Source: Saccharothrix sp. (GTDB lineage: Bacteria; Actinomycetota; Actinomycetes; Mycobacteriales; Pseudonocardiaceae). Taken from it: a stretch of 64,000 nucleotides of DNA. Below the pieces are notes generated by a model, which saw only the letters and a program-made list of their open reading frames with translations, did not search any database and had not been told where the DNA came from. The DNA lies in the NCBI RefSeq assembly GCF_031180885.1, contig NZ_JAPSLK010000003.1, forward strand, positions 263,444 to 327,443, in the 5' to 3' direction. The position numbers and the translations under genes were made by a program. Below, piece by piece: positions 23,108 through 47,597 of the stretch (the first letter of the stretch is position 1; each line of letters begins with the position of its first letter).

Positions 23108-23130
23108 GTTTGAGTCAGTTAGACTCAAAC
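23108..23130. promoter_or_regulatory. Perfect palindrome at the head of the J-domain/vWA operon
   Basis: GTTTGAGTC-AGTTA-GACTCAAAC has 9-bp perfect arms and ends one base before the ATG at 23132. It therefore covers the leader or start of a short-leader transcript. The AT-rich arms stand out in this genome. It is the best candidate operator for the NrtR-type regulator encoded in the same operon. The binding assignment is inference. Confidence 0.75.
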
Positions 23131-23131
23131 C

Positions 23132-24127
23132 ATGTTCACGAGGGAAGAGGCGCTCCGCAGGGTCGAAGGAGCAAGCCCCGCCCGCCTCTTCGGACCACCC
23201 ACCCCCGACCGCCGCGACCAGGCCAAACGCCTCTACCGCGCCCTCGCCGGCGCCCTGCACCCCGACCGGGTCGCCCCCGACGACACCCGCGCCCACCGCG
23301 CCTCGGCCGACCTCACCCGCCTCTACCACGACTGGCGACACGCCGAACCCGTCACCCTGCGCACCACCCGGGGCACCTACCGCCTCACCGACCTGCACGC
23401 CGTGGGCAGCGTCGCCAACCTCTACCGCACCGACGGCCCTCACGTCGTCAAACTCGTCCGCAACCCCAAGCTCAACCCGTTGCTGCACGCCGAATGGCAC
23501 GCCCTGCGCACGCTCGACGAGTTCACCGACGAGCACCGCCGGCTCAAGCCCTACTACCCCACCCTCCACGACACCGGCGACGTCCAACGCGGCCACCGCG
23601 CCTTCACCGTCCTCGAACCCCTCGTGGACGGTTTCGTCACCCTGACCGACGTCAAAGCCGCCCACCCGCACGGGCTCGACGGCCGCGACTACGCCTGGAT
23701 GCACCGCCGACTCCTGCGCGCCCTCGCCGGCGCCCACCGGGCCGGACTCGTCCACGGCGCCGTGACCAGCGACAACGTCCTGGTCCACCCGCGCCGGCAC
23801 GGCATCGTCCTCACCGGCTGGACCTTCGCCGTCGAAACCGGCCAACCCCCGCTCGCCACCGACAACACCACCACCTACCCGCCCGAAGTCACCGCCAAAG
23901 CACCCCTCTCCCCCGCCACCGACGTCCACATGGCACACCAGCTCATGCTGGACCTGTTGGCGCACAACGAAAAACGGCAACGCACGTTCGCCCGGGGCTG
24001 CATGCAGCGCGACCCGGCGGCCCGCCCCGACGCCGCCGACCTGCTCGACGAGTACGACCAACTCCTGGAAGACCTCTACGGCGCAAGGGTGTTCCGGCCC
24101 TTCGCCCTCCCCCGACGAGGAGCCTGA
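23132..24127 (+). CDS. J-domain plus protein-kinase-like (pseudokinase) protein
   Basis: A 331-residue fusion. Residues ~24-70 form a J-like domain (KRLYRALAGALHPDRVAPDD) with the HPD motif at 43-45, which in DnaJ proteins contacts Hsp70. Residues ~85-320 look like a protein kinase fold: a glycine-poor first strand (VGSVANLYRTDG), the ATP-anchoring Lys in HVVKLVR (Lys107) and a helix-C Glu in AEWHAL. The catalytic loop AGLVHGAVTSDNVLV has HGA (208-210) instead of HRD, although Asn215 is kept. The DFG position reads TGW (228-230). It is therefore probably a pseudokinase or a highly unusual kinase. The stop is 2 bp before the next gene's start; it is first gene of a five-gene operon. Confidence 0.75.
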   Translation: MFTREEALRRVEGASPARLFGPPTPDRRDQAKRLYRALAGALHPDRVAPDDTRAHRASADLTRLYHDWRHAEPVTLRTTRGTYRLTDLHAVGSVANLYRTDGPHVVKLVRNPKLNPLLHAEWHALRTLDEFTDEHRRLKPYYPTLHDTGDVQRGHRAFTVLEPLVDGFVTLTDVKAAHPHGLDGRDYAWMHRRLLRALAGAHRAGLVHGAVTSDNVLVHPRRHGIVLTGWTFAVETGQPPLATDNTTTYPPEVTAKAPLSPATDVHMAHQLMLDLLAHNEKRQRTFARGCMQRDPAARPDAADLLDEYDQLLEDLYGARVFRPFALPRRGA

Positions 24128-24129
24128 CC

Positions 24130-25110
24130 ATGGGACACGGACGCTGGGACGACAACGCCTACGCCGCCGCCCGCACCTTCCGCGCCGCCAAGGGCCTGGA
24201 CGACTTCGGCTACACCGCCAAGCTCAAGAACGGCCCCCGCGACCAGTGGAAGGCCGACCACACCCTCGACCCGCTCGGCGTCACCGCCCGCGAGTGCCGC
24301 GACTCGGCCGACCACGCCGACTCCACCCCGATCGCCGTCCTGTTCGACGTCACCGGCTCCATGGGGTACGTCCCGCAGATCATGCAGCGCAAGCTCGGCA
24401 AGCTGCACGGACTGTTGCAGCGCAAGGGATACCTCACCGACCCGCAGATCCTCTTCGGCGGCATCGGCGACGCCGACAGCGACCGCGTCCCCCTCCAGAT
24501 CGGCCAGTTCGAGTCCGACAACCGCATGGACGAGCAGCTGCGCACCATCTTCCTGGAGGGCAACGGCGGCGGGCAGAAGAGCGAGTCCTACGAACTCGCC
24601 GCCTACTTCATCGCCCGCCACGTCGTCACCGACGCCTGGGAGAAGCGCGGCCGCAAGGGCTACCTGTTCCTCATCGGCGACGAACTCAACAAGCCCAGGC
24701 TGGAGGCCCGCCACATCCGCCGGATCATCGGCGACGACGTCCACCAGGACATCGATCCCGCCTCCGTCTACCGCGAACTGGCCCGCAAGTGGCACGTCTA
24801 CTTCGTGCTGCCCGACCAGTCCCACTACTACGACGACCCGGAGATCGCCGACCACTGGCGCGGCCTGCTCGGCCAGCACTTCCTCAAGCTCGACGACCCC
24901 GGTGCCGTGTGCGAGCTGATCGCCGCCACCATCGGCCTGGAGGAACGCGTCGTCGACCTCGACCAGGCCATGGTCGACCTCGCCGAGGTCGGCTCGGCCG
25001 ACGAGAGCCGCGCCGTGGGCAAGGCCCTGGTCCAGGTCGGGTCACGCGCCGTCGCCACCTCCGGCACGCCGGACGACCTCGACGGCCCCGACGACGTCAC
25101 CCTGGCATGA
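24130..25110 (+). CDS. von Willebrand factor A domain protein
   Basis: A 326-residue cytoplasmic vWA protein. A charged N-terminal region (~1-65, HGRWDDNAYAAARTFRAAKG) precedes the vWA core, which begins STPIAVLFDVTGSMGYVPQI. The metal-ion-dependent adhesion site reads DVTGS at 73-77, a DxTxS variant. Later pieces include ILFGGIGDADSDRVPLQIGQ, GNGGGQKSESYELAAYF, and GYLFLIGDELNKPRLE. There is no signal peptide or membrane helix, so it acts inside the cell, as TerY-type vWA proteins do. Neighbours are the pseudokinase upstream (2-bp gap) and the PurA-like enzyme downstream (ATGA overlap). A scaffold or chelator role in a kinase-vWA-phosphatase set is inference. Confidence 0.82.
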   Translation: MGHGRWDDNAYAAARTFRAAKGLDDFGYTAKLKNGPRDQWKADHTLDPLGVTARECRDSADHADSTPIAVLFDVTGSMGYVPQIMQRKLGKLHGLLQRKGYLTDPQILFGGIGDADSDRVPLQIGQFESDNRMDEQLRTIFLEGNGGGQKSESYELAAYFIARHVVTDAWEKRGRKGYLFLIGDELNKPRLEARHIRRIIGDDVHQDIDPASVYRELARKWHVYFVLPDQSHYYDDPEIADHWRGLLGQHFLKLDDPGAVCELIAATIGLEERVVDLDQAMVDLAEVGSADESRAVGKALVQVGSRAVATSGTPDDLDGPDDVTLA

Positions 25111-26336
25111 CACCGCACGTGATCGTCGTCGGCCTGGGCTTCGGCGACGAGGGGAAGGGGGCGGTGGTCGACGCGCTGTGCGCTCGGGGCCCGGTCACCG
25201 CCGTCGTCCGCTTCAACGGCGGCGCCCAGGCCGCGCACAACGTGGTCGTCGACGGCCGGCACCACACGTTCAGCCAGTACGGGTCCGGCACGCTCGCGGG
25301 CGTGCCGACCCACCTCTCCCAGCACGTCCTGGTGGAGCCCATCGCCCTGGCCACCGAAACCCGAGCCTTGGCCGCTCTGGGCGTCCCGGATCCTCTGACC
25401 CTCCTCACCGCCCACGCCGACGCCCTGCTCACCACTCCCCTGCACATCGCCGCCAACCGCGCCCGCGAGGACGCCCGCGGCGCTGACCGGCACGGCTCGT
25501 GCGGCAAGGGCATCGGCGAGACCGCCTGGTACTCCCTGCTGGCCGGCGCTCGTCCCGGCTCGGTGGTGGAACACCAGGAGGTCCTGGGCGTCCCTGGTTC
25601 TGCTCCCACCGTCGGCGACTGCCTCCGCCCTCGGCTTCTGCGCCAGAAACTCGACACCCTCGCCCGCTTCTACGAGCCCTTGATCGGCGACGGCACCCAC
25701 GTGGACGACCTGATCCACCTGTACACCGCTTTCGCCGACGCGGTCCGCATCGTCGACGGCGACCACGTGGGCCTTTTGGCCGACACCGGCCGCCTGGTCT
25801 TCGAAGGCGCACAGGGCGTGCTGCTGGACGAAACCCACGGCTTCCACCCCCACACCACGTGGTCCACCACCACCCCGCGCAACGCCCTGACCCTCCTTTC
25901 CGGCCGCCCCTCCCGCGTCGTAGGCGTCACCCGCACCTACCACACCCGCCACGGCGCCGGCCCCTTCCCGACCGAGGATCCGGCCCTGGACCGCCCCGAA
26001 CTCCACAACGACACCGGTCCGTACCAGGGCGCTTGGCGCACCGGCCACTTCGACGCCGTCCTGTTCCGCCACGCCCTCGCCCGCGCCCGCCCCGACGCCC
26101 TAGCCGTAACCCACCGAGACGGCCCCGCAGGCATGGTCGCCACCGCCTACAAGACCTCCACCGGCCGCATCACCACCCTGCCTTTGGGCACTGACACCAC
26201 GTTCCTCAACCAGTGCACCCCCGAACTCGAACCCCTATCCCCCGACTGGTTCGACCGCCTGGACCTCCCCATCGACATCGAAGGCCACGGCCCCAACCGC
26301 ACCTCCTACACCGTCCGCACCCCAGCGTCCGCTTAG
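25107..26336 (+). CDS. Adenylosuccinate synthetase-like enzyme (PurA paralogue)
   Basis: 409 residues, against ~430 for PurA. The P-loop reads GLGFGDEGKG with Asp14 in the catalytic-Asp position (W of the usual QWGDEGKG is F). The second catalytic residue is kept as His44 in NGGAQAAHN. LVFEGAQGVLLDETHGFHPH and TYHTRHGAGPFPTEDP match PurA closely. Differences are concentrated in specificity sites: the aspartate-binding loop (TTGRRRRTG in E. coli) reads NDTGPYQGAWRTG from residue 301, and the guanine-recognition TKxD reads THRD (335-338). It thus likely joins a nucleotide-like substrate with something other than, or bound differently from, aspartate. Start overlaps the vWA stop (ATGA). It is unlikely to be the housekeeping purA. 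Confidence 0.8.
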   Translation: MTPHVIVVGLGFGDEGKGAVVDALCARGPVTAVVRFNGGAQAAHNVVVDGRHHTFSQYGSGTLAGVPTHLSQHVLVEPIALATETRALAALGVPDPLTLLTAHADALLTTPLHIAANRAREDARGADRHGSCGKGIGETAWYSLLAGARPGSVVEHQEVLGVPGSAPTVGDCLRPRLLRQKLDTLARFYEPLIGDGTHVDDLIHLYTAFADAVRIVDGDHVGLLADTGRLVFEGAQGVLLDETHGFHPHTTWSTTTPRNALTLLSGRPSRVVGVTRTYHTRHGAGPFPTEDPALDRPELHNDTGPYQGAWRTGHFDAVLFRHALARARPDALAVTHRDGPAGMVATAYKTSTGRITTLPLGTDTTFLNQCTPELEPLSPDWFDRLDLPIDIEGHGPNRTSYTVRTPASA

Positions 26337-26347
26337 GCTGGGCAACC

Positions 26348-26989
26348 ATGAACGCGCCGCGCATCGAATCGACCCTGGTGTCGGTGGACGTCCTCACCCT
26401 GCGCTTCGACGTCGAGGCGCACGCCGTCCTGCTCGCGATCGCCCCGCGTGCGTTCGACCCGTTCGCCGGTGCGCTCGCCCTGCCCGGTGTGCTGCTGGGC
26501 AAGGGGGAACGGCTCCGGGACGCCGCCCTGCGCGCGGTCACCACCAAGCTCGGACTGCCCGAGGTCACCGCCGCCGGGCAGCTCGCCACCTTCGACGAAC
26601 CCTCCCGCGACCCCCGCGGCCCCACCCTGTCGGTCGCGCTCTGGGCCACCCTCGACCCCGCCGCCTCCGCCGCCGGGCCCACCTGGACCCGCCTCGACGA
26701 CGTCCCCGAACTCGCCTTCGACCACAACCGCATCGTCACCGACTGCCGCCCCATCCTCGCCGACAAGCTGTGGCGCGACACCACCTTCACCGCCGGCCTC
26801 CTCGGCCGCGAGTTCACCACCGCCCAAGCCCTCGACGTCACCGAATCCCTCACCGGCGACCGCCCCTACCCCGCCAACCTCGGCCGCACCATGGACCGCG
26901 TCCCCGGCCTCGAACGCACCACCCAACACGCCGCCGCCCTCCCCCAGGGCGGCCGACCACCCCTCGTCTGGCGCTGGACCACCCCGTGA
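26348..26989 (+). CDS. NrtR-type regulator (degenerate Nudix plus winged helix)
   Basis: 213 residues in the NrtR arrangement. Residues ~1-135 form a Nudix fold, but the Nudix box region GVLLGKGERLRDAALRAVTT (47-66) has RA and TK where REUxEE is required, so pyrophosphatase activity is unlikely. Residues ~140-213 form a winged helix (EFTTAQALDVTESLTGDRPY, PPLVWRW). NrtR proteins are established repressors of NAD-related genes that respond to ADP-ribose or NAD. Here the gene is 11 bp behind the PurA-like gene, and the operon begins with a large palindrome at 23108-23130. Its likely role is to link the cassette to NAD/ADP-ribose status, which is inference. A plain Nudix hydrolase is the alternative. 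Confidence 0.72.
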   Translation: MNAPRIESTLVSVDVLTLRFDVEAHAVLLAIAPRAFDPFAGALALPGVLLGKGERLRDAALRAVTTKLGLPEVTAAGQLATFDEPSRDPRGPTLSVALWATLDPAASAAGPTWTRLDDVPELAFDHNRIVTDCRPILADKLWRDTTFTAGLLGREFTTAQALDVTESLTGDRPYPANLGRTMDRVPGLERTTQHAAALPQGGRPPLVWRWTTP

Positions 26990-27429
26990 ACTGGCTCACC
27001 ACCGCACTCGACAGCCCCGAGTTCCGCACCCTGGGCGCAACGTCGATCCACATCGACGACTACACCGAGGACGACGCGGTCCCCACCGCCTTCCGCCTCC
27101 TCGACGAACTCGTCACCGCCATCCACGACACCGACCTCATGGCGATGCTCGTCATCGTCACCGGACTCCACGACGACATCGCCCTCGCCGCCCCGCCCGC
27201 CGAGACCCTCGAAGCCGCCTGGGACCACTGGACCCCGCCCGAGCTGTACCTGATCCGACGCGCCCCGCTGCTCTCCCCCTACGTCGTCGAGGAGTACAAG
27301 AAGCCCTACCCGCCAGGCACCTTCACCGCACCCCACGGCGTCTACCACGCCTACTACCGCTGCCACCGCCAAGGCGACACAACGGAATTCACCAGCGGGG
27401 TCTACATCGAGCACTACCCCGGCAAGTAG
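26986..27429 (+). CDS. Small conserved-looking protein of unknown function
   Basis: A 147-residue protein starting at GTG 26986, overlapping the NrtR-type stop (GTGA). It is acidic and soluble, with no signal or membrane segments. Stretches such as ATSIHIDDYTEDDAVPTAFR, LMAMLVIVTGLHDDIALAAP and PYVVEEYKKPYPPGTFTAPH, plus a C-terminal HAYYRCHRQGD and TSGVYIEHYPGK, give a compact alpha/beta pattern. I do not recognise it. Being translationally coupled, it belongs to the cassette. Its last 16 bp overlap the end of the convergent amidase gene. Confidence 0.7.
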   Translation: MNWLTTALDSPEFRTLGATSIHIDDYTEDDAVPTAFRLLDELVTAIHDTDLMAMLVIVTGLHDDIALAAPPAETLEAAWDHWTPPELYLIRRAPLLSPYVVEEYKKPYPPGTFTAPHGVYHAYYRCHRQGDTTEFTSGVYIEHYPGK

Positions 27430-28889
27430 CGCGGCGGTCGTCGGGCACCCGCCACCGACTCGAAGGCCGCGGCGAAGCCCAGCACCTTCACGTCCTCCCC
27501 GTGCCCGGCCATGAACGACAACCCCACCGGCAGCTCACCCGCGAACCCCGCCGGCACCGTCACGTTCGGGTACCCCGACACCGCCGCCGGCGACGACGAC
27601 CCCAGCACGAAAGCATCCCCGGCCGCGTAGTCCGTCCGCCACGCCGGAGAGTTCGTCGGCGACACGATCACGTCCAACCCGTGCGCCGCCACCACCTCGT
27701 CGATCGACCGCTTCGCCAACGACGTCGCCGTCCGCCGCTGCTCCCGATACCCCGGATCGGTCACCGGCGGCGCATCCCGGGCCATCAGGAAGATCTCCTG
27801 GCCGAACCGGCTCAGCTCCACCGGATCCCGCTCGTTGAACGCGATCAGCTCCCCCAACGTCCGCGGCGCGCCCGGCCGCGACGCCAGGTACCGCTCCAGC
27901 TCGTGCCGGAACTCGGTCAGCAGCGCCGGCCACTCCGCCGCGAAGATCTCCTCCTGGTACGGCAACTCCACCTCGACCACCACCGCACCGGCCCGCCGCA
28001 GCACCTCCACCGCGGAAGCCACCACCCGGTCCGTCCCGGCACTCTTCCCCGCCTGCCGCCACACCCCGACCCGCGCACCCCGCAACGCACCGGGCGCCAG
28101 CTCGTAGGACACCCGCCGCCGGTCCAGCACCGACATCAGGATCACCGCGTCCACCACGTGCCGCGCCATCGGACCGGCGGTGTCCTGGTGCGACGAGATC
28201 GGCACGATCCCGTCCCCGCTCACCGACCCCAGCGTCGGCTTGAGCCCCACGATCCCGTTCGCCCCCGACGGGCACACGATCGACCCGTCCGTCTCCGTCC
28301 CCACGGCCACCTGCGCCAACGACGCCGCCACCGCCGCACCCGACCCCGACGACGACCCGCACGGGTTGCGGTCCAGCACGTACGGGTTGTTGGTCTGGCC
28401 GCCCACCGCCGACCAACCGGACGTCGACCGCGTCGAGCGGAAGTTCGCCCACTCCGACAGGTTCGTCTTGCCCAGCACCACCGCGCCCGCCTCGCGCAAC
28501 CGGGTCACCAGCTCGGCGTCGTCGCGCGGCGGGACCCGCAGCGCCCGGGAACCGGCCGTGGTCGCCAGACCGCGCGTGTCGATGTTGTCCTTGATCAGCA
28601 CGGGGATGCCGTCCAGCGGACCACGCGCACGACCGGCACGCCGGCGCTGATCGCTCTCGGCGGCCTGGCGCAGCGCGGTCGGGTCGACGGCGACGACCGA
28701 GCGGACCTTGCGGTCGACGGTGTCGATGCGGCGCAGGTAGGCGCGGGTCAGGTCGACCGCGGTCAAGGTGCCCGCGTCGAGCCGGCGGACGAGCTGCGGG
28801 ATGGTCGCCGCGTCCAGGTCCAAGCCGTGGGCGTGCGCGGGAGGAGCGACGAGCAGCACGGTCATCGCCGCCGCGAGCAGGGATCGCAT
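27414..28889 (-). CDS. Secreted amidase (amidase-signature family)
   Basis: A 491-residue amidase with a signal peptide (MRSLLAAAMTVLLVAPPAHA). The Ser-cisSer-Lys triad is readable: Lys in GIPVLIKDNIDT, and both serines in NPCGSSSGSGAAVAAS with the downstream GTETDGSIVCPSG. The remaining family regions (VGLKPTLGSVSGDGIVP, AGPMARHVVDAVILMSVL) are intact. It would hydrolyse an extracellular amide; the substrate is unknown. It lies between the vWA/PurA-like operon and the PP2C gene, but faces the other way and has its own promoter, so it may be an unrelated insertion into that locus. Confidence 0.9.
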   Translation of the reverse strand: MRSLLAAAMTVLLVAPPAHAHGLDLDAATIPQLVRRLDAGTLTAVDLTRAYLRRIDTVDRKVRSVVAVDPTALRQAAESDQRRRAGRARGPLDGIPVLIKDNIDTRGLATTAGSRALRVPPRDDAELVTRLREAGAVVLGKTNLSEWANFRSTRSTSGWSAVGGQTNNPYVLDRNPCGSSSGSGAAVAASLAQVAVGTETDGSIVCPSGANGIVGLKPTLGSVSGDGIVPISSHQDTAGPMARHVVDAVILMSVLDRRRVSYELAPGALRGARVGVWRQAGKSAGTDRVVASAVEVLRRAGAVVVEVELPYQEEIFAAEWPALLTEFRHELERYLASRPGAPRTLGELIAFNERDPVELSRFGQEIFLMARDAPPVTDPGYREQRRTATSLAKRSIDEVVAAHGLDVIVSPTNSPAWRTDYAAGDAFVLGSSSPAAVSGYPNVTVPAGFAGELPVGLSFMAGHGEDVKVLGFAAAFESVAGARRPPRYLPG

Positions 28890-28942
28890 GTCCCCAGCCG
28901 TAGTGGTCCGGCGCGCGCGGGGTCAAGCCGCCGATGGTCGGG

Positions 28943-28976
28943 GACTTATTTTAGTCAACACTGAAGTTATCATGCC
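28943..28976. promoter_or_regulatory. AT-rich promoter/operator region between amidase and PP2C genes
   Basis: An AT-rich patch in a GC-rich genome contains TTTTAGTCAAC, which matches the left arm of the 23108-23130 palindrome (TTTGAGTC) at 7 of 8 positions, though no matching right arm follows. On the minus strand the same bases give TTGACT, a -35-like box suited to the amidase gene. It could be a weak operator half-site or simply the divergent promoter. Confidence 0.35.
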
Positions 28977-29062
28977 TACTGAGCGGGAATTCTCACGCCA
29001 CACTCAGGCAGCGCGCGGATCATCGGTGGTGGACACCCGTCTCTGGACTCCGGAGGCCCGCC

Positions 29063-29839
29063 ATGACCGTCCTGCCCAACACCGCCCTCCCGACCGCCGG
29101 CTGGGCCACCGCCCGCGGCGCGCGGCGCGTGGCCGCCGACGCCGCCGCCGTCCGCACCTCCCCCACCGCGTTCGCCGCCGCCGTCGCGGACGGCATCGGC
29201 GACACCGGGGCCGCCGCGTCCGCCGCCCGCTTCGCGGTGGCCGAAGCGGTGGACGCGGCGTGGCGCGCCGGGGTGCTCGAAGCTGCCGGGGTGTCCGAGG
29301 CCATGGAGGACGTCCGCCGCGGCCTGCACGAGTCCGGCCTGTCCACCCACCCCCTCGACGTCCCCCTCCCCCGCCCGGCCGGCGAAAGCCTCCCACAGCC
29401 ACCCGCACCCGACGTTCGGCGGGCGCACGCAACCGGGTCGGGTGACACGACGCTCGTGGTCGCGGCGGGTGGCGTGCCGCAGTGGTTCGTGGCCTGGGTC
29501 GGGGACTGCCGGGCCTACTTCCTGCCCGAGAACGGCCCCGCGACCCTGCTCACCACCGACCACACCGTCGGCCGCTACCTGCGCGACCGCGGTGTCGACG
29601 CCAACCCGCGCCTCGACCTCGTCGTCACCACCACCGCCCGCAAGGGCGGCCACGGCGTGGCCCGCGGGGCCGGTCCGGGCCGGCTGGTCCTGCTCACCAA
29701 CGGCGTCCACCGCGCCACCGACGAGGCCACCGTCACCCGCCTGGCCCGCTCCGCCACCGACCCGGCCGAAGCCGCCCGCGCCCTGGTCGACGTCGCCGTC
29801 GAGGACAACGCCGCCGCGGTCGTGGTCGACCTGCGTTGA
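29063..29839 (+). CDS. PP2C-like protein phosphatase with a lost metal ligand
   Basis: 258 residues with the motif order of PP2C phosphatases. AFAAAVADGIGDTGAAASAA (D43-G44) is the first metal site. GSGDTTLVVAA, WVGDCRAYFL and LLTTDHTVGRYL follow, then the final VEDNAAAVVVDL (Asp248-Asn249). The motif normally reading SDG is LLTNGVHR (Asn213), so one metal-coordinating Asp is gone and activity may be weak or absent. ATG 29063 follows CGGAGG. The nearby J-pseudokinase and vWA genes make this the third member of a kinase/vWA/PP2C set, though split from them by the amidase gene. The CtpE-type ATPase gene begins 47 bp downstream and may be cotranscribed. Confidence 0.72.
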   Translation: MTVLPNTALPTAGWATARGARRVAADAAAVRTSPTAFAAAVADGIGDTGAAASAARFAVAEAVDAAWRAGVLEAAGVSEAMEDVRRGLHESGLSTHPLDVPLPRPAGESLPQPPAPDVRRAHATGSGDTTLVVAAGGVPQWFVAWVGDCRAYFLPENGPATLLTTDHTVGRYLRDRGVDANPRLDLVVTTTARKGGHGVARGAGPGRLVLLTNGVHRATDEATVTRLARSATDPAEAARALVDVAVEDNAAAVVVDLR

Positions 29840-32392: not shown

Positions 32393-34459
32393 ATGAGTGC
32401 GCACGGCCCCCGCCCGCTCTCGGGCCGGGCCTGGCTGGGCTACCTCGCGGTCGGGCTGGCCGCGATCACCGCGTACTACCTGATCCCGCGCGCGGGCGCG
32501 GGCGTCGCCGCGCGGGTCGTCGTGTACTGCCTGACCAGCACGTCGGCGGCGGTGGTCGTGCTGTGGGCGGCGGTGCGCAACCGGGCGGGCGCGCGGGTGC
32601 CGTGGCTGCTGCTGGGGTTGAGCCAGGTGGTGTACTCGCTGGCCGACTGCACCTTCTACGTCAACCACTACCTGTTGGGGCTGACCGGTTTCCCGTCCCC
32701 GGCCGACGTGTTCTACCTCGGCCACTACCCGCTGGTCGTGGTCGCGCTGGTGCTGCTGATCCGGCGCCGCAGCCCCGGCCGCGACCTGCCCGGCCTGCTG
32801 GACGCCTCGGTGCTCGCGGTCGTCGCGGCGATGCTGTCGTGGCTGTACCTGATCGGCCCGCGCGCCCGCCTGGACCAGCCGATGCTCGTGACGCTGGCGT
32901 CGGTGGGCTACCCGGTGATGGACCTGGCGATGTTCGTCGTGGCGCTGCGGCTGTTCCTGGGCACCGGCCGGCGGACGGGGTCGTTCGCGCTGCTGTCGGC
33001 GAACCTGCTGGCCATCCTCACCGCCGACACGCTCTACGTGCTCCAGCAGCTCAACGGGACCTACCAGGCGGGCAACTTCCTCGACGCCATCTGGCTGGGC
33101 GGCAACCTGGCCCTGGGCGCGGCCGCGCTGCACCCGACCATGGCCCGGCTGGCCGAGCCGACCGCCGCGCGGGACAACGTGCTGGGGTGGGGCCGGATCG
33201 CCGCGCTGTGCGGGGCCGCGCTGATCGCGCCCGCGATGCTGGTGCTGCAACACGCGACCGGGCGGTTCCGGGACATCCCGGTGATCGCGGCGGCGTGCGC
33301 GATGCTGTTCGCGCTGGTGATCGCGCGGCTCGCGGCGATGGTCGCCGACCAGCGGCGGCTGGCCATCACCGACGCGCTGACCGGCCTGCACACCCGGCGG
33401 TTCTTCGTCGCGCAACTGCCCATCGAGGTCGAGCGGGCGCGGCGGGGCAACGGGTCGGTGGCGGTGTTCATCGCCGACGTCGACCGGTTCAAGTCCATCA
33501 ACGACGGCCACGGCCACCCGGCGGGCGACCGCGTGCTGGTGGAGGTGGCGGACCGGCTGCGGCGCGCGGCGCGGGCCGGTGACGTGATCGCCAGGTACGG
33601 CGGCGAGGAGTTCGCCCTGCTGGCGCCGGGCGTGCGGCCCGACGAGCTGGCGTCGATCGCCCAGCGGCTGCGGCAGAGCGTCGCGGGCAGCCCGATCGCG
33701 GCGACGGACACGGCGCTGCTGGCCGTGACGGTGTCGGTGGGCGCGGCGTGCTACCCCCAGCACGGCGGCGACCCGGCGGCGGTGATCGCGGCGGCGGACC
33801 GGTCGCTGTACGCGGCGAAGGTGTCCGGGCGGGACCGGGCCGTGGTGGGCGCGGTGGGCGTGGACGCCGAACAGGGCGTGGTGGAGCACCTGTGCCGCAT
33901 CGCCGACCAGGTGGACCTGCGCATGGGGTCCCGGCACGACAGCCGCGCGGTGGGCCGGTGGGCCCGGCTGCTGGCCGCCGAACTGGGCCACGACGAGCAC
34001 GGCATCCGGGTCGCGGGGCTGGCGGCGCGGCTGCGGGACGTGGGCAAGGTCGTCATCCCGGACGCGGTGCTGCTCAAACCGTCCGCGCTGGACGCCGAGG
34101 AGTGGCGGGTGGTGCGCCGGCACGCCGACCACGGCTTCCGCCTGGTGGACACGGTGCCGGGCCTGTTCCCGGTGGCCCAGGCGGTCCGCCAGCACCACGA
34201 GCACTACGACGGCTCCGGCTACCCCCAGGGCCTGGCGGGCACCGCGATCCGCTGGGAGGCGCGCCTGGTGGCCGTGTGCGACGTGTGGGCGGCCCTGCTG
34301 GCGGACCGCCCACACCGTCCCGCGTGGTCGGTGGACGAGGCCCGGACCGTGTTGCGGACCGGGCGCGGCACCTTGTTCGACCCGGACGTGGTGGACCTGT
34401 TCCTGGACCTGCACGCCGAGGGCCGCATCGACGCGCCCGACCTGGGCCGCGTCGGCTAG
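32393..34459 (+). CDS. Membrane GGDEF/HD-GYP protein with altered HD motif
   Basis: 688 residues. The N-terminal ~310 hold nine or so hydrophobic helices, a membrane sensor. A diguanylate cyclase domain follows: LAITDALTGLHTRRFF, FIADVDRFKSINDGHGHPAG and RYGGEEFALL with an intact active GGEEF at ~403-407. The C-terminal ~170 residues are HD-GYP-like: HDSRAVGRWARLLA, RHADHGFRLVD and QHHEHYDGSGYPQG. The HD dyad itself reads LRDVGKVVIPD, with Arg548 in place of the metal-binding His, so phosphodiesterase activity is doubtful. The protein may make cyclic-di-GMP and use the second domain to sense it. The stop overlaps the end of the convergent DHFR-like gene by 4 bp. Confidence 0.88.
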   Translation: MSAHGPRPLSGRAWLGYLAVGLAAITAYYLIPRAGAGVAARVVVYCLTSTSAAVVVLWAAVRNRAGARVPWLLLGLSQVVYSLADCTFYVNHYLLGLTGFPSPADVFYLGHYPLVVVALVLLIRRRSPGRDLPGLLDASVLAVVAAMLSWLYLIGPRARLDQPMLVTLASVGYPVMDLAMFVVALRLFLGTGRRTGSFALLSANLLAILTADTLYVLQQLNGTYQAGNFLDAIWLGGNLALGAAALHPTMARLAEPTAARDNVLGWGRIAALCGAALIAPAMLVLQHATGRFRDIPVIAAACAMLFALVIARLAAMVADQRRLAITDALTGLHTRRFFVAQLPIEVERARRGNGSVAVFIADVDRFKSINDGHGHPAGDRVLVEVADRLRRAARAGDVIARYGGEEFALLAPGVRPDELASIAQRLRQSVAGSPIAATDTALLAVTVSVGAACYPQHGGDPAAVIAAADRSLYAAKVSGRDRAVVGAVGVDAEQGVVEHLCRIADQVDLRMGSRHDSRAVGRWARLLAAELGHDEHGIRVAGLAARLRDVGKVVIPDAVLLKPSALDAEEWRVVRRHADHGFRLVDTVPGLFPVAQAVRQHHEHYDGSGYPQGLAGTAIRWEARLVAVCDVWAALLADRPHRPAWSVDEARTVLRTGRGTLFDPDVVDLFLDLHAEGRIDAPDLGRVG

Positions 34460-46526: not shown

Positions 46527-47597
46527 ATGACCGTCGCCACCGGTTCCCCGGAGCACGAGGCCCACGTGGACGACCTGGCCCGCCGCCTGACCGCCGCCGG
46601 TGCACGGGTCCGCCGGGACCCCATCCCGATGCGCCGCTGGACACCCCGCCACGCCGAACTGCACCCCGTGGGGGCCGCGGTGCCCGTGGCGTACACGGCG
46701 CGCACCGGCCCCGAAGGCGTGACCGGCCTCCTGTCGACACGACCCCGGGCCGGGGTCATCGGCCTGGCCCGCATCCACCCGACCACCCGGGACATCCTCG
46801 ACTGGGCCGGCGACCCGGTCCCTTCACCGGACCACGAGTCCATCCGGGAAGCCTTGGCGCGCTTCGAAAGCGCGGGCGCGGTGGGGGCGGTCCTGGTGGT
46901 CGACGAGCCCGACACCCACCTCCTGCGCGACGGCCGCCACCGCCGCATCCCGGCCGTGTTCGCCCGCCCCGACCAACCGATACGAGAGGGCGACACGGCG
47001 ACCCTGGTGGTGGAGGCCGACATCGACGTCGTGGCGACGCACAACGTCCTCGGCGTCCTCCCCGGCTCCTCCCCCGACCTCGTCGTGCTCCAAACCCACA
47101 CCGACGGCCCGAACGCCTTGGCGCACAACGATTCCGTCATGTCCGTGGTGGAAGACCTCGCGCAAACCGACCTGCCCGCCTGCGTGCTGGTCCTGCTCAC
47201 CACCGGCCACCTCGCGACCGAGGAGGTGTGGGGCGTGCCGGCGTTCCTGGCCGAGCACCGCGACGACCTCGTCCCCCGCGTCAAGGCCGCGCTGAGCGTC
47301 GGCACGGGGTCGTGCTTCGCCACCGGGCACCCGGCGGTGCTCGACTGCGCCCGCCGCGCCCTGGTCCGCGCCGGCGACGAACCCCGGGTGTGCCGGCCGT
47401 TCCTGCCGCACGACCTGGCCCCGGACGGGGTGACCTGGCCCGGTGACGGCGGCCCCTTCTGGCAGGCGGGCGTGCCGACGCTGGAACTGGCCTGCACGCA
47501 CCGGACCGCGCTCACCCGGGCGGTGCTGGAGCTGTGCGCGACACCCCGCGAAGCCTTGTCGCGTCGAACGGTCCTCGAAACGCACGTTGATCGGTAA
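46527..47597 (+). CDS. M28/PA-domain peptidase-like protein
   Basis: About 356 residues. A mid-protein PA-like insert (RFESAGAVGAVLVVDEPDTH) is followed by an M28-like core. LVVLQTHTDGPNALAHNDSV places His and Asp ligands, although the ND motif is modified from GANDNGSG. LVLLTTGHLATEEVWGVPAF replaces the usual GEE base region with ATEE. Two metal ligands are therefore altered and activity is uncertain. There is no signal peptide, so the protein is cytoplasmic. I prefer ATG 46527, with GGAGG 9 bases upstream, over ATG 46497. The FAD-protein gene follows by 45 bp on the same strand. Confidence 0.62.
   Translation: MTVATGSPEHEAHVDDLARRLTAAGARVRRDPIPMRRWTPRHAELHPVGAAVPVAYTARTGPEGVTGLLSTRPRAGVIGLARIHPTTRDILDWAGDPVPSPDHESIREALARFESAGAVGAVLVVDEPDTHLLRDGRHRRIPAVFARPDQPIREGDTATLVVEADIDVVATHNVLGVLPGSSPDLVVLQTHTDGPNALAHNDSVMSVVEDLAQTDLPACVLVLLTTGHLATEEVWGVPAFLAEHRDDLVPRVKAALSVGTGSCFATGHPAVLDCARRALVRAGDEPRVCRPFLPHDLAPDGVTWPGDGGPFWQAGVPTLELACTHRTALTRAVLELCATPREALSRRTVLETHVDR

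Follow-up and report, generated by a model that had tools for sequence, protein, structure and literature searches.

Adenylosuccinate synthetase (PurA) employs the residues D13, K16, H41, Q224, T239 and D333 (E. coli PurA numbering, used throughout) to bind GTP and to activate IMP at its 6-oxo group, and a relative of this enzyme, PurZ, acts as 2-aminoadenylosuccinate synthetase in Z-genome phages. Proteins of the vWA type often pair with a P-loop NTPase, as in MoxR-vWA chaperone pairs. In passages of PMC11090510, the definition of a further vWA-containing system, the TerY-P triad, includes PP2C and a kinase with zinc ribbon. A vWA protein is also combined with a Nudix-HTH regulator in the systems centred on ADP-ribosylglycohydrolase (ARG; PMC9503650, section 3.8), while excerpts of PMC4666351 give ADP-ribose, NAD or arabinose as ligands of NrtR-family regulators and describe the AraR branch of this family as enzymatically inactive. 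Here, we analysed a 64,000-nucleotide stretch of the genome of a Saccharothrix strain (hereafter the window), in which a cassette of four genes encodes a J-domain fused to a pseudokinase (A), a vWA protein (B), a PurA-like enzyme (C) and a putative NrtR-like repressor (D), followed by a gene for a protein of 147 amino acids (E).

The cassette resembles each of the described systems in part. C shares with PurA the fold family PF00709 together with the residues of the GTP site and of phosphoryl transfer, but its aspartate loop, R143 and N38 are changed, it forms a clade of its own, a vWA gene nearly always lies beside it and the host has a separate purA. Like PurZ, C is a PurA relative found in phages; however, it keeps D13, at which PurZ has serine, and does not group with PurZ in a tree that includes two sequences of the latter. 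With TerY-P triads the cassette has in common a vWA protein and a kinase-fold protein, whereas it lacks a conserved PP2C and a zinc ribbon, its kinase-fold protein is a J-domain pseudokinase and its main partner is PurA-like. The N-terminal Nudix-like sensor and the C-terminal DNA-binding region of D as well as the palindromic operator recall NrtR, NdnR and AraR, and the Nudix box of D is degenerate as in AraR, but the operator occurs at one genome place and D stays under the NCBIfam cut-off for NtrR. ARG-centred systems likewise join a Nudix-HTH regulator to a vWA protein, but we found neither ARG nor phosphatase in the cassette, which has a PurA-like enzyme instead and is carried by phages. 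Finally, a vWA protein with a P-loop NTPase is reminiscent of MoxR-vWA pairs, although the NTPase is here PurA-like and of GTP type instead of AAA+. In the open-access literature, judged by titles and beginnings of abstracts, we found no description linking vWA, PurA-like and J-kinase genes, in agreement with a first-pass annotation of the window, which had not recognised the combination as a described system. We thus report an apparently undescribed system, shared with viruses, that has a well-defined core, adds a new clade to the PurA family and possesses a clean regulatory site. With moderate confidence, we propose that A-B-C-D is an autorepressed cassette, in which C activates a hypoxanthine-type purine with GTP for an acceptor other than aspartate and B and A serve as chaperone-adaptor.

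Results

All five genes are encoded on the forward strand (+) in close succession. Gene A (23132-24127; 331 aa; match to phrog_3043 at 1.7e-28), in which the HPD motif of the J-domain is present, ends 2 bp before gene B (24130-25110; 326 aa; phrog_2971, 3.1e-72), which codes for a stand-alone vWA protein with a MIDAS-type DVTGS motif. B overlaps by 4 bp with gene C (25107-26336; 409 aa), and gene D (26348-26989; 213 aa) follows after a gap of 11 bp. Gene E (26986-27429; 147 aa) overlaps the end of D by 4 bp. A palindrome, TTTGAGTC-AGTTA-GACTCAAA (23109..23129, +), is the predicted site of D and lies 2 bp before the ATG of A. The first-pass annotation, which was made from the sequence alone, had described a run of five genes (23132-27429) that overlap or lie at most 11 bp apart and had added a PP2C-like gene further downstream. 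These coordinates are borne out, all six named genes are present, and the assigned domains hold as well (J-domain and kinase fold in A, vWA fold in B, PF00709 in C, Nudix/NrtR-like in D).

Scans of bacterial genomes and of viral contigs yielded at least 570 and 290 relatives, respectively; the best 80 of each were kept, hence both samples lean to closer relatives. (The counts refer to loci L039-L198 of our collection; L001-L038 and L199 onward partly overlap these and are omitted, L005, L039 and L200 being, for example, a single locus.) Co-location of homologues in other genomes had been set as a test of the cassette in the first-pass annotation, and B and C were indeed found together, with B first, in 79 of 80 bacterial and 78 of 80 viral loci. 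The bacterial loci had the gene orders A B C D (45), B C D (31), A B C (2), B C (1) and A B (1), the last (L069) being a stretch that ends just past B. Among the viral loci, we found A B C (50), B C (25), D B C A (3) and A B (2); in one of the latter two (L193), the C gene starts and is cut at the contig end (E 8e-22). A was present in 48 bacterial and 55 viral loci, upstream of B in 100 of these 103, and D in 76 bacterial and three viral loci. These gene orders mark B-C as the core, A as a frequent and D as a bacterial component. At least two of the three viral ‘D’ matches (L131, L143) retain the Nudix glutamates and, judged by this, are probably ordinary Nudix proteins. In 132 of 157 loci, the starts of B and C are no more than 1.3 kb apart. 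The B-C pair is encountered repeatedly in Actinomycetota, Pseudomonadota and several phage groups, in most cases together with A and, among bacteria, with D, so that the grouping by far exceeds what chance would give: the cassette is real, with the borders A-B-C-D instead of those first proposed.

Named carriers among the best 80 bacterial loci include Saccharothrix, Lentzea, Actinokineospora, Amycolatopsis, Nocardia, Rhodococcus, Gordonia and Nocardioides, among others. Plasmids carry A-B-C with a Nudix gene in Rhodococcus and Tsukamurella and the cassette with a divergent D-like gene in Allorhizobium and Acetobacter; on plasmid pAtS4e of Allorhizobium ampelinum (L034:10270-16732), genes for an AAA ATPase, DUF5682 and DUF4132 follow the cassette. 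A reverse search that started from PF00709 and was blind to B revealed, in 60 genomes of the class, three full-size second copies besides that of the window (G482, G497 and G498), all of them of the C family and all beside B; A and D were present in two of the three, and the contig of the third stops at B. No credible C-terminal-side fusion of A-D with other domains was found. Long extensions in L007, L116 and L089 are high-GC frames, which look like read-on open frames and were rejected as fusions. In L007, which belongs to the genus genome G015, gene A gives two separated matches and is seemingly interrupted, and B and C match over nearly full length.

Besides bacteria, the cassette is common in phages, for which all record counts contain RefSeq/GenBank duplicates of single phages. 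Employing tblastn, we detected B in 208 phage records (189 Mycobacterium, one Mycolicibacterium, ten Rhizobium, six Vibrio, two other), A in 190 and C in 206 (189, one, ten and six of the same four host genera) plus 17 others, some of which (Salmonella, Listeria fragments) resemble bacterial purA by record name. B and C together were found in 190 Mycobacterium/Mycolicibacterium records. The number of records with A-B-C, mostly without D, is also 190 and equals, at the level of totals, that of records in which the terminase of Bixzunavirus (mycobacteriophage cluster C) is matched with an identity of at least 80%. Phage NoodleTree, for example, has the order kinase, vWA, a 90-aa gene and PurA-like. 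Current annotations in the approximately 190 cluster C mycobacteriophage records read ‘PurA-like adenylosuccinate synthetase’, ‘serine/threonine kinase’ and ‘hypothetical protein’, and, as far as we found, do not connect these genes with one another; sections of PMC9476963 list a kinase and a PurA-like gene, with no further remark, among those unique to C1 phages and conserved in every one of them. Phages of Rhizobium and Vibrio also have B-C; L031 (Rhizobium) and L033 (Vibrio), in which no A was detected, share another protein with a GVVWDxMxG motif, a possible substitute for A, which is encoded shortly upstream of B-C (L031:6738-7529, L033:7052-7756). A protein resembling NADAR/YbiA-type N-glycosidases, labelled by eye, is encoded near B-C in Vibrio phage phiTY18 (L033:6030-6680), and annotations as NMN-adenylyltransferase/Nudix and phosphoribosyltransferase stand near B-C in Rhizobium phage Y65. 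NAMPT-like and SPFH-like genes, identified by eye, were seen in five of 83 viral loci each.

Several observations weigh against the proposed reading of the cassette. A was not found in 32 of 80 bacterial loci (mostly Nocardia) and in 25 of 80 viral loci, in one of which (L175) the upstream sequence is too short to judge. C is missing from viral locus L174 up to the contig end, 3.4 kb beyond B, and starts more than 2 kb past the start of B in nine of 157 loci, so that the pair is not always adjacent. The clearest exception seen to the B-C linkage is plasmid pRSMBA of Rhodovulum (L037:5990-8918), in which D-like, A and B genes are present and C is absent from a 16.7-kb stretch at a loose threshold; it is possibly a decayed or alternative form of the cassette. 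An IS3 transposase gene lies near this set. In the viral neighbourhoods, the commonest family outside A-C was found in just eight of 83 loci (the next in seven, seven and six; antisense shadow frames excluded), and these surroundings thus give no hint on the substrate. As to distribution, 24 of 25 genomes of the genus (that of the window included; G005 without B) gave a match in a search with B, in which the A-D order was also checked, as did one of 11 other genomes of the family and two of 24 genomes from other families of the order; across the phylum, only two of 396 genomes have the cassette, one of them that of the window. Rare in the phylum yet nearly constant in the genus, it looks more like a lineage-core trait than like a sporadic defence system.

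The enzyme C belongs to PF00709 (Pfam, E 4.7e-59 for the window copy). The genome holds two genes of this family, a canonical purA on another contig (603.5 bits) and C (199.7 bits); C is therefore a paralogue and not the sole purA, which the first-pass annotation had named as a second test. In a phylogenetic tree of 84 sequences (IQ-TREE; 62 C proteins, of which 31 are bacterial and 31 drawn from 72 viral ones, 20 PurA and two PurZ), all 62 C proteins split off as their own PF00709 clade with a UFBoot value of 100; with just two PurZ sequences, the placement of PurZ is uncertain. Bacterial and viral C proteins interleave in this tree, hence transfer of the cassette between cells and phages has probably occurred on several occasions. 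Of the 481 viral PF00709 proteins counted in portions of PMC12884076, 147 are phage PurZ, and a PurA group of 251 contains 246 prokaryotic members; by arithmetic, approximately 330 of the viral proteins counted there fall into neither named group. The C family with its 206 phage records, although counted in another data set, probably makes up the bulk of these.

Residue conservation was assessed in 103 of 192 candidate C proteins, which remained after dropping canonical purA and sequences of more than 75% identity. The residue set for GTP binding and 6-oxo activation is retained nearly throughout (D13 in 102, K16 in 102, H41 in 103, Q224 in 103, T239 in 100 and D333 in 102). In PurA, N38, T129 and R143 contact the 5'-phosphate, V273 and R303 the ribose, and T300, T301, R303 and R305 aspartate. 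In C, N38 is replaced by Q in 99 proteins, T129 by C or V in 99 and V273 by H in all 103, and R143 is retained in only three, within a poorly alignable stretch with 26 gaps. Within the aspartate loop, T300 is exchanged for W, Y or F in 94 proteins and T301 for Q in 99, R303 is deleted in 103 and R305 is hydrophobic in 103. This pattern of residues kept and lost suggests that C performs the same first half-reaction as PurA with another second substrate and another handle on the nucleotide.

Should C simply be an extra adenylosuccinate synthetase, it would raise the AMP supply in stress or for phage DNA synthesis, and the membership in PF00709, the preserved GTP site and catalytic residues and the annotation of phage copies as adenylosuccinate synthetase would fit to this. 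The aspartate-binding residues are, however, changed or deleted almost family-wide together with N38 and R143, window C stays far below the equivalog cut-offs of the adenylosuccinate synthase models (153.2 vs 402 and 127.5 vs 395.55 bits), which all 42 aligned C members match, and a vWA gene nearly always adjoins C, so we regard such a role as quite improbable. A PurZ-like pathway of DNA-base substitution (Z-genome) might be suspected from a PF00709 enzyme carried by phages and from the PurZ-type name of PHROG 1211, ‘2-aminooxy adenylosuccinate synthetase’. This appears extremely unlikely, as window C scores 31.4 against a cut-off of 300 with the PurZ model NF038379 (NCBIfam), no frequent partner family lies near the viral copies, and position 13, Asp in 102 of 103 C proteins, is Ser in PurZ of S-2L and phiVC8 in our alignment and, according to portions of PMC12884076, in 100% of 147 phage PurZ, which use dGMP. 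The retention of D13 would accordingly favour a hypoxanthine-type ring and disfavour guanine. The suggestion of the first-pass annotation that a modified nucleotide is made or sensed here is plausible, given which residues C has kept and which it has lost and given a regulator of Nudix type.

This regulator, D, aligns with a chain of AraR over residues 14-191 and with the NCBIfam NtrR model over residues 5-210, the latter with 28 bits against a cut-off of 400. By these alignments, D appears to possess a Nudix-like and a DNA-binding domain as in NrtR-type regulators, and the earlier label as NrtR-type is in keeping with both and with a palindromic operator upstream. In 31 of 85 D proteins, non-redundant at 80% (window copy among the 85), other residues mostly stand in place of the glutamates of the Nudix REUxEE core (Ala at position 63 in 25 proteins, Lys at position 67 in 28), and its arginine is kept in 31.

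The operator was searched for directly upstream of the first gene as TTTKAGTC-N5-GACTMAAA with up to three mismatches (L187 was too short and is omitted). It was found in 75 of 76 D-bearing bacterial loci (exception L073), in three of four scored bacterial loci without D and in one of 79 viral loci; in-gene controls gave 0 of 80 bacterial and one of 79 viral loci, and for the window palindrome, 0 were expected in shuffles. Within the 9.46-Mb genome, the operator occurs at one place only, with 0 hits for a reversed-pattern control, and a wider D regulon did not emerge, no second operator being present at up to three mismatches. Control by D is thus very probably confined to this cassette, whose promoter D would cover. 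At the fourth base, which is G or T, the opposite arm carries the complement in 76 of 78 sites, as expected for a dimer-type site. The spacer is asymmetric: T12 is kept in 73 and A13 in 75 of 78 sites, and these two unconstrained positions form, together with A15 and T17, which are fixed by the search motif, the sequence TAnAnT, likely a -10 box to judge from its conservation. In the window, the candidate -10 element is TAGACT (23120..23125, +) inside the operator. In 44 of 47 A-first loci, 2-3 bp separate the end of the operator from the start codon, and a leaderless transcript would follow from this position; where B comes first (31 loci), the start codon is mostly farther away. A scan with the sigma-70 consensus found no promoter, and no riboswitch or other structured RNA was detected within the window at gathering score.

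The published combination of Nudix-HTH regulator and vWA protein (PMC9503650) could also point towards an ARG-centred system that counteracts ADP-ribosylation, with the Nudix protein as its regulator and the vWA protein as its chaperone. Yet no ADP-ribosylglycohydrolase was found by Pfam in eight window genes (flanks of other bacterial loci unscanned), section 3.8 of that paper makes no mention of PurA, and the regulators therein are predicted ADP-ribose sensors, an assignment that D does not have; we consider this reading highly improbable.

The AlphaFold model of A (pLDDT 95.1) has a DnaJ-PKA chimera as top match in the PDB, followed by VRK3 and STK40, both of which are pseudokinases. Pfam matches of window A are weak (PF14531, 7e-4; PF00226, 0.14); among 50 aligned A members, window included, 21 match DnaJ and 22 match Pkinase. 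In 77 of 135 A proteins, non-redundant at 75%, the HPD motif is mostly kept (H in 69, P in 70, D in 72), as is the VAIK lysine (55). The HRD aspartate is absent in 74 (A 53, G 16, S 3, H 2) and present in three, and the DFG aspartate position holds G in 43, D in 25, S in eight and E in one protein; window A lacks both aspartates. The term ‘pseudokinase’ of the first-pass annotation is therefore correct. B has no Pfam match; its model (pLDDT 92.0) matches integrin I/vWA domains (best E 2e-6), a predicted fold that supports its vWA nature, and a DUF444 match was obtained for one of 58 B homologues.

Taken together with C, these folds allow the strongest rival to our proposal, namely that C is not a synthetase but a GTP-driven switch or motor of a chaperone with the vWA protein and the J-pseudokinase, in place of a MoxR AAA+ ATPase. 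The common partnership of vWA proteins with P-loop NTPases, the near-invariant pairing of B with C, the missing aspartate loop and IMP contacts of C and the kept HPD motif of A argue for it, as do the jumbo phages that, in the sections of PMC7824862 drawn on here, carry DnaJ proteins and a MoxR-vWA chaperone pair. Pfam revealed no MoxR AAA+ partner among the window genes, and none appeared as a frequent neighbour family at the viral copies (rarer families not domain-searched). In PurA, D13, H41 and Q224 serve purine chemistry as well as GTP. Their retention in 102-103 of 103 C proteins speaks against a mere motor, and so does a regulator of nucleotide-sensor type; we thus hold the chaperone motor to be doubtful and keep to the autorepressed purine-activating cassette.

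The flanks of the cassette are variable. Downstream of E, an amidase gene (27414-28889, -; PF01425) stands between the cassette genes and the PP2C-like gene (29063-29839, +; PF13672, E 7e-7). The six-gene cassette of the first-pass annotation stood for A-B-C-D and failed for the other two genes: E was found in none of the 80 other bacterial and none of the 80 viral loci (homologues occur in four of 59 other genomes, all distant from the cassette), and a homologue of the window PP2C near the cassette in two bacterial and no viral loci. A homologue of the window amidase was likewise seen near the cassette in two of 80 bacterial loci. A comparison of 21 cassettes (that of the window and of 20 other genomes, one from another genus) gave five left and seven right flank groups, and the PP2C, amidase and aldehyde dehydrogenase neighbours are all from one flank context. 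PP2C was a neighbour in five of 20 regions compared, all of this one context, and PF13672 matched within 10 kb of the cassette in two of 20 related B-carrying genomes (G009, G016), both in the chromosomal context of the window; these 20 were taken from the 26 other genomes that had given a match to B. PP2C, amidase and E were therefore rejected as members on locus counts and flank comparison; E is a passenger and PP2C a neighbour in one context only. These counts also bear on the link to TerY-P triads drawn by the first-pass annotation, that is, on a module of vWA, kinase and phosphatase for phosphorylation signalling or defence. The vWA gene does adjoin that of a kinase-fold protein, and A gave weak PADLOC matches to defence kinases (MkoA 2e-9, PD-T4-6 3e-6, mad6 4e-6). 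However, besides the scarcity of PP2C, the HRD aspartate is almost always absent from A, and a single cysteine in window A leaves no zinc ribbon, so that the definition as worded in the passages of PMC11090510 is unmatched; we judge such a module very improbable, and the earlier link did not hold. Memberships in TerY-P, PurZ, ARG-centred systems or among ordinary PurA duplicates were thus rejected or downgraded on the features tested.

Elsewhere in the window, a protein with GGDEF and HD domains of cyclic-di-GMP type (PF00990, PF13487) is encoded close to the cassette (32393-34459, +). A selenocysteine tRNA called by ARAGORN at 46796-46882 (+) lies within a long open frame, has no Rfam match at gathering score and is probably false.

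Discussion

How might the four proteins act together? In the proposed mechanism, D, with its Nudix-fold sensor and DNA-binding domain, would occupy the palindrome over the likely -10 box and silence the cassette, until a nucleotide-like ligand binds to D and relieves repression. C would then perform the GTP-dependent first step known from PurA, phosphorylation of the 6-oxo group of a hypoxanthine-type purine, and hand the activated purine to an acceptor other than free aspartate; the sugar/phosphate part of its substrate would differ from that of plain IMP. B would be a Mg2+-dependent vWA adaptor acting directly with C, and A, which some lineages would do without, might tether host DnaK to the B/C complex. 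In large phages, A-B-C or B-C is mostly unaccompanied by D and would probably be expressed on a schedule set by the phage; this carriage points towards an activity useful to virus and host alike, most likely a role in stress or in a conflict over the purine nucleotide pool.

A bolder version, which we regard as a long shot, ascribes to C a third chemistry of the PurA family: hypoxanthine nucleotides, or inosine in nucleic acids, would be activated with GTP and receive nitrogen from a donor other than aspartate, by which deaminated adenines would be re-aminated or tagged, and phages might use this against RADAR or Cad1 or for a new signal molecule. RADAR makes ITP.

The cassette is a compact system with a clean regulatory site and a tractable host, M. 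smegmatis, and raises the enzymological question of what a PurA without aspartate site produces. If the third chemistry were true, bacteria would hold such an enzyme behind a nucleotide-sensing repressor, while phages would carry it together with the vWA protein and often a DnaK-recruiting pseudokinase, but without the repressor. Phage copies could then, for example, undo immunity that deaminates ATP to ITP, as by RADAR and Cad1, or make a signal molecule of a novel kind.

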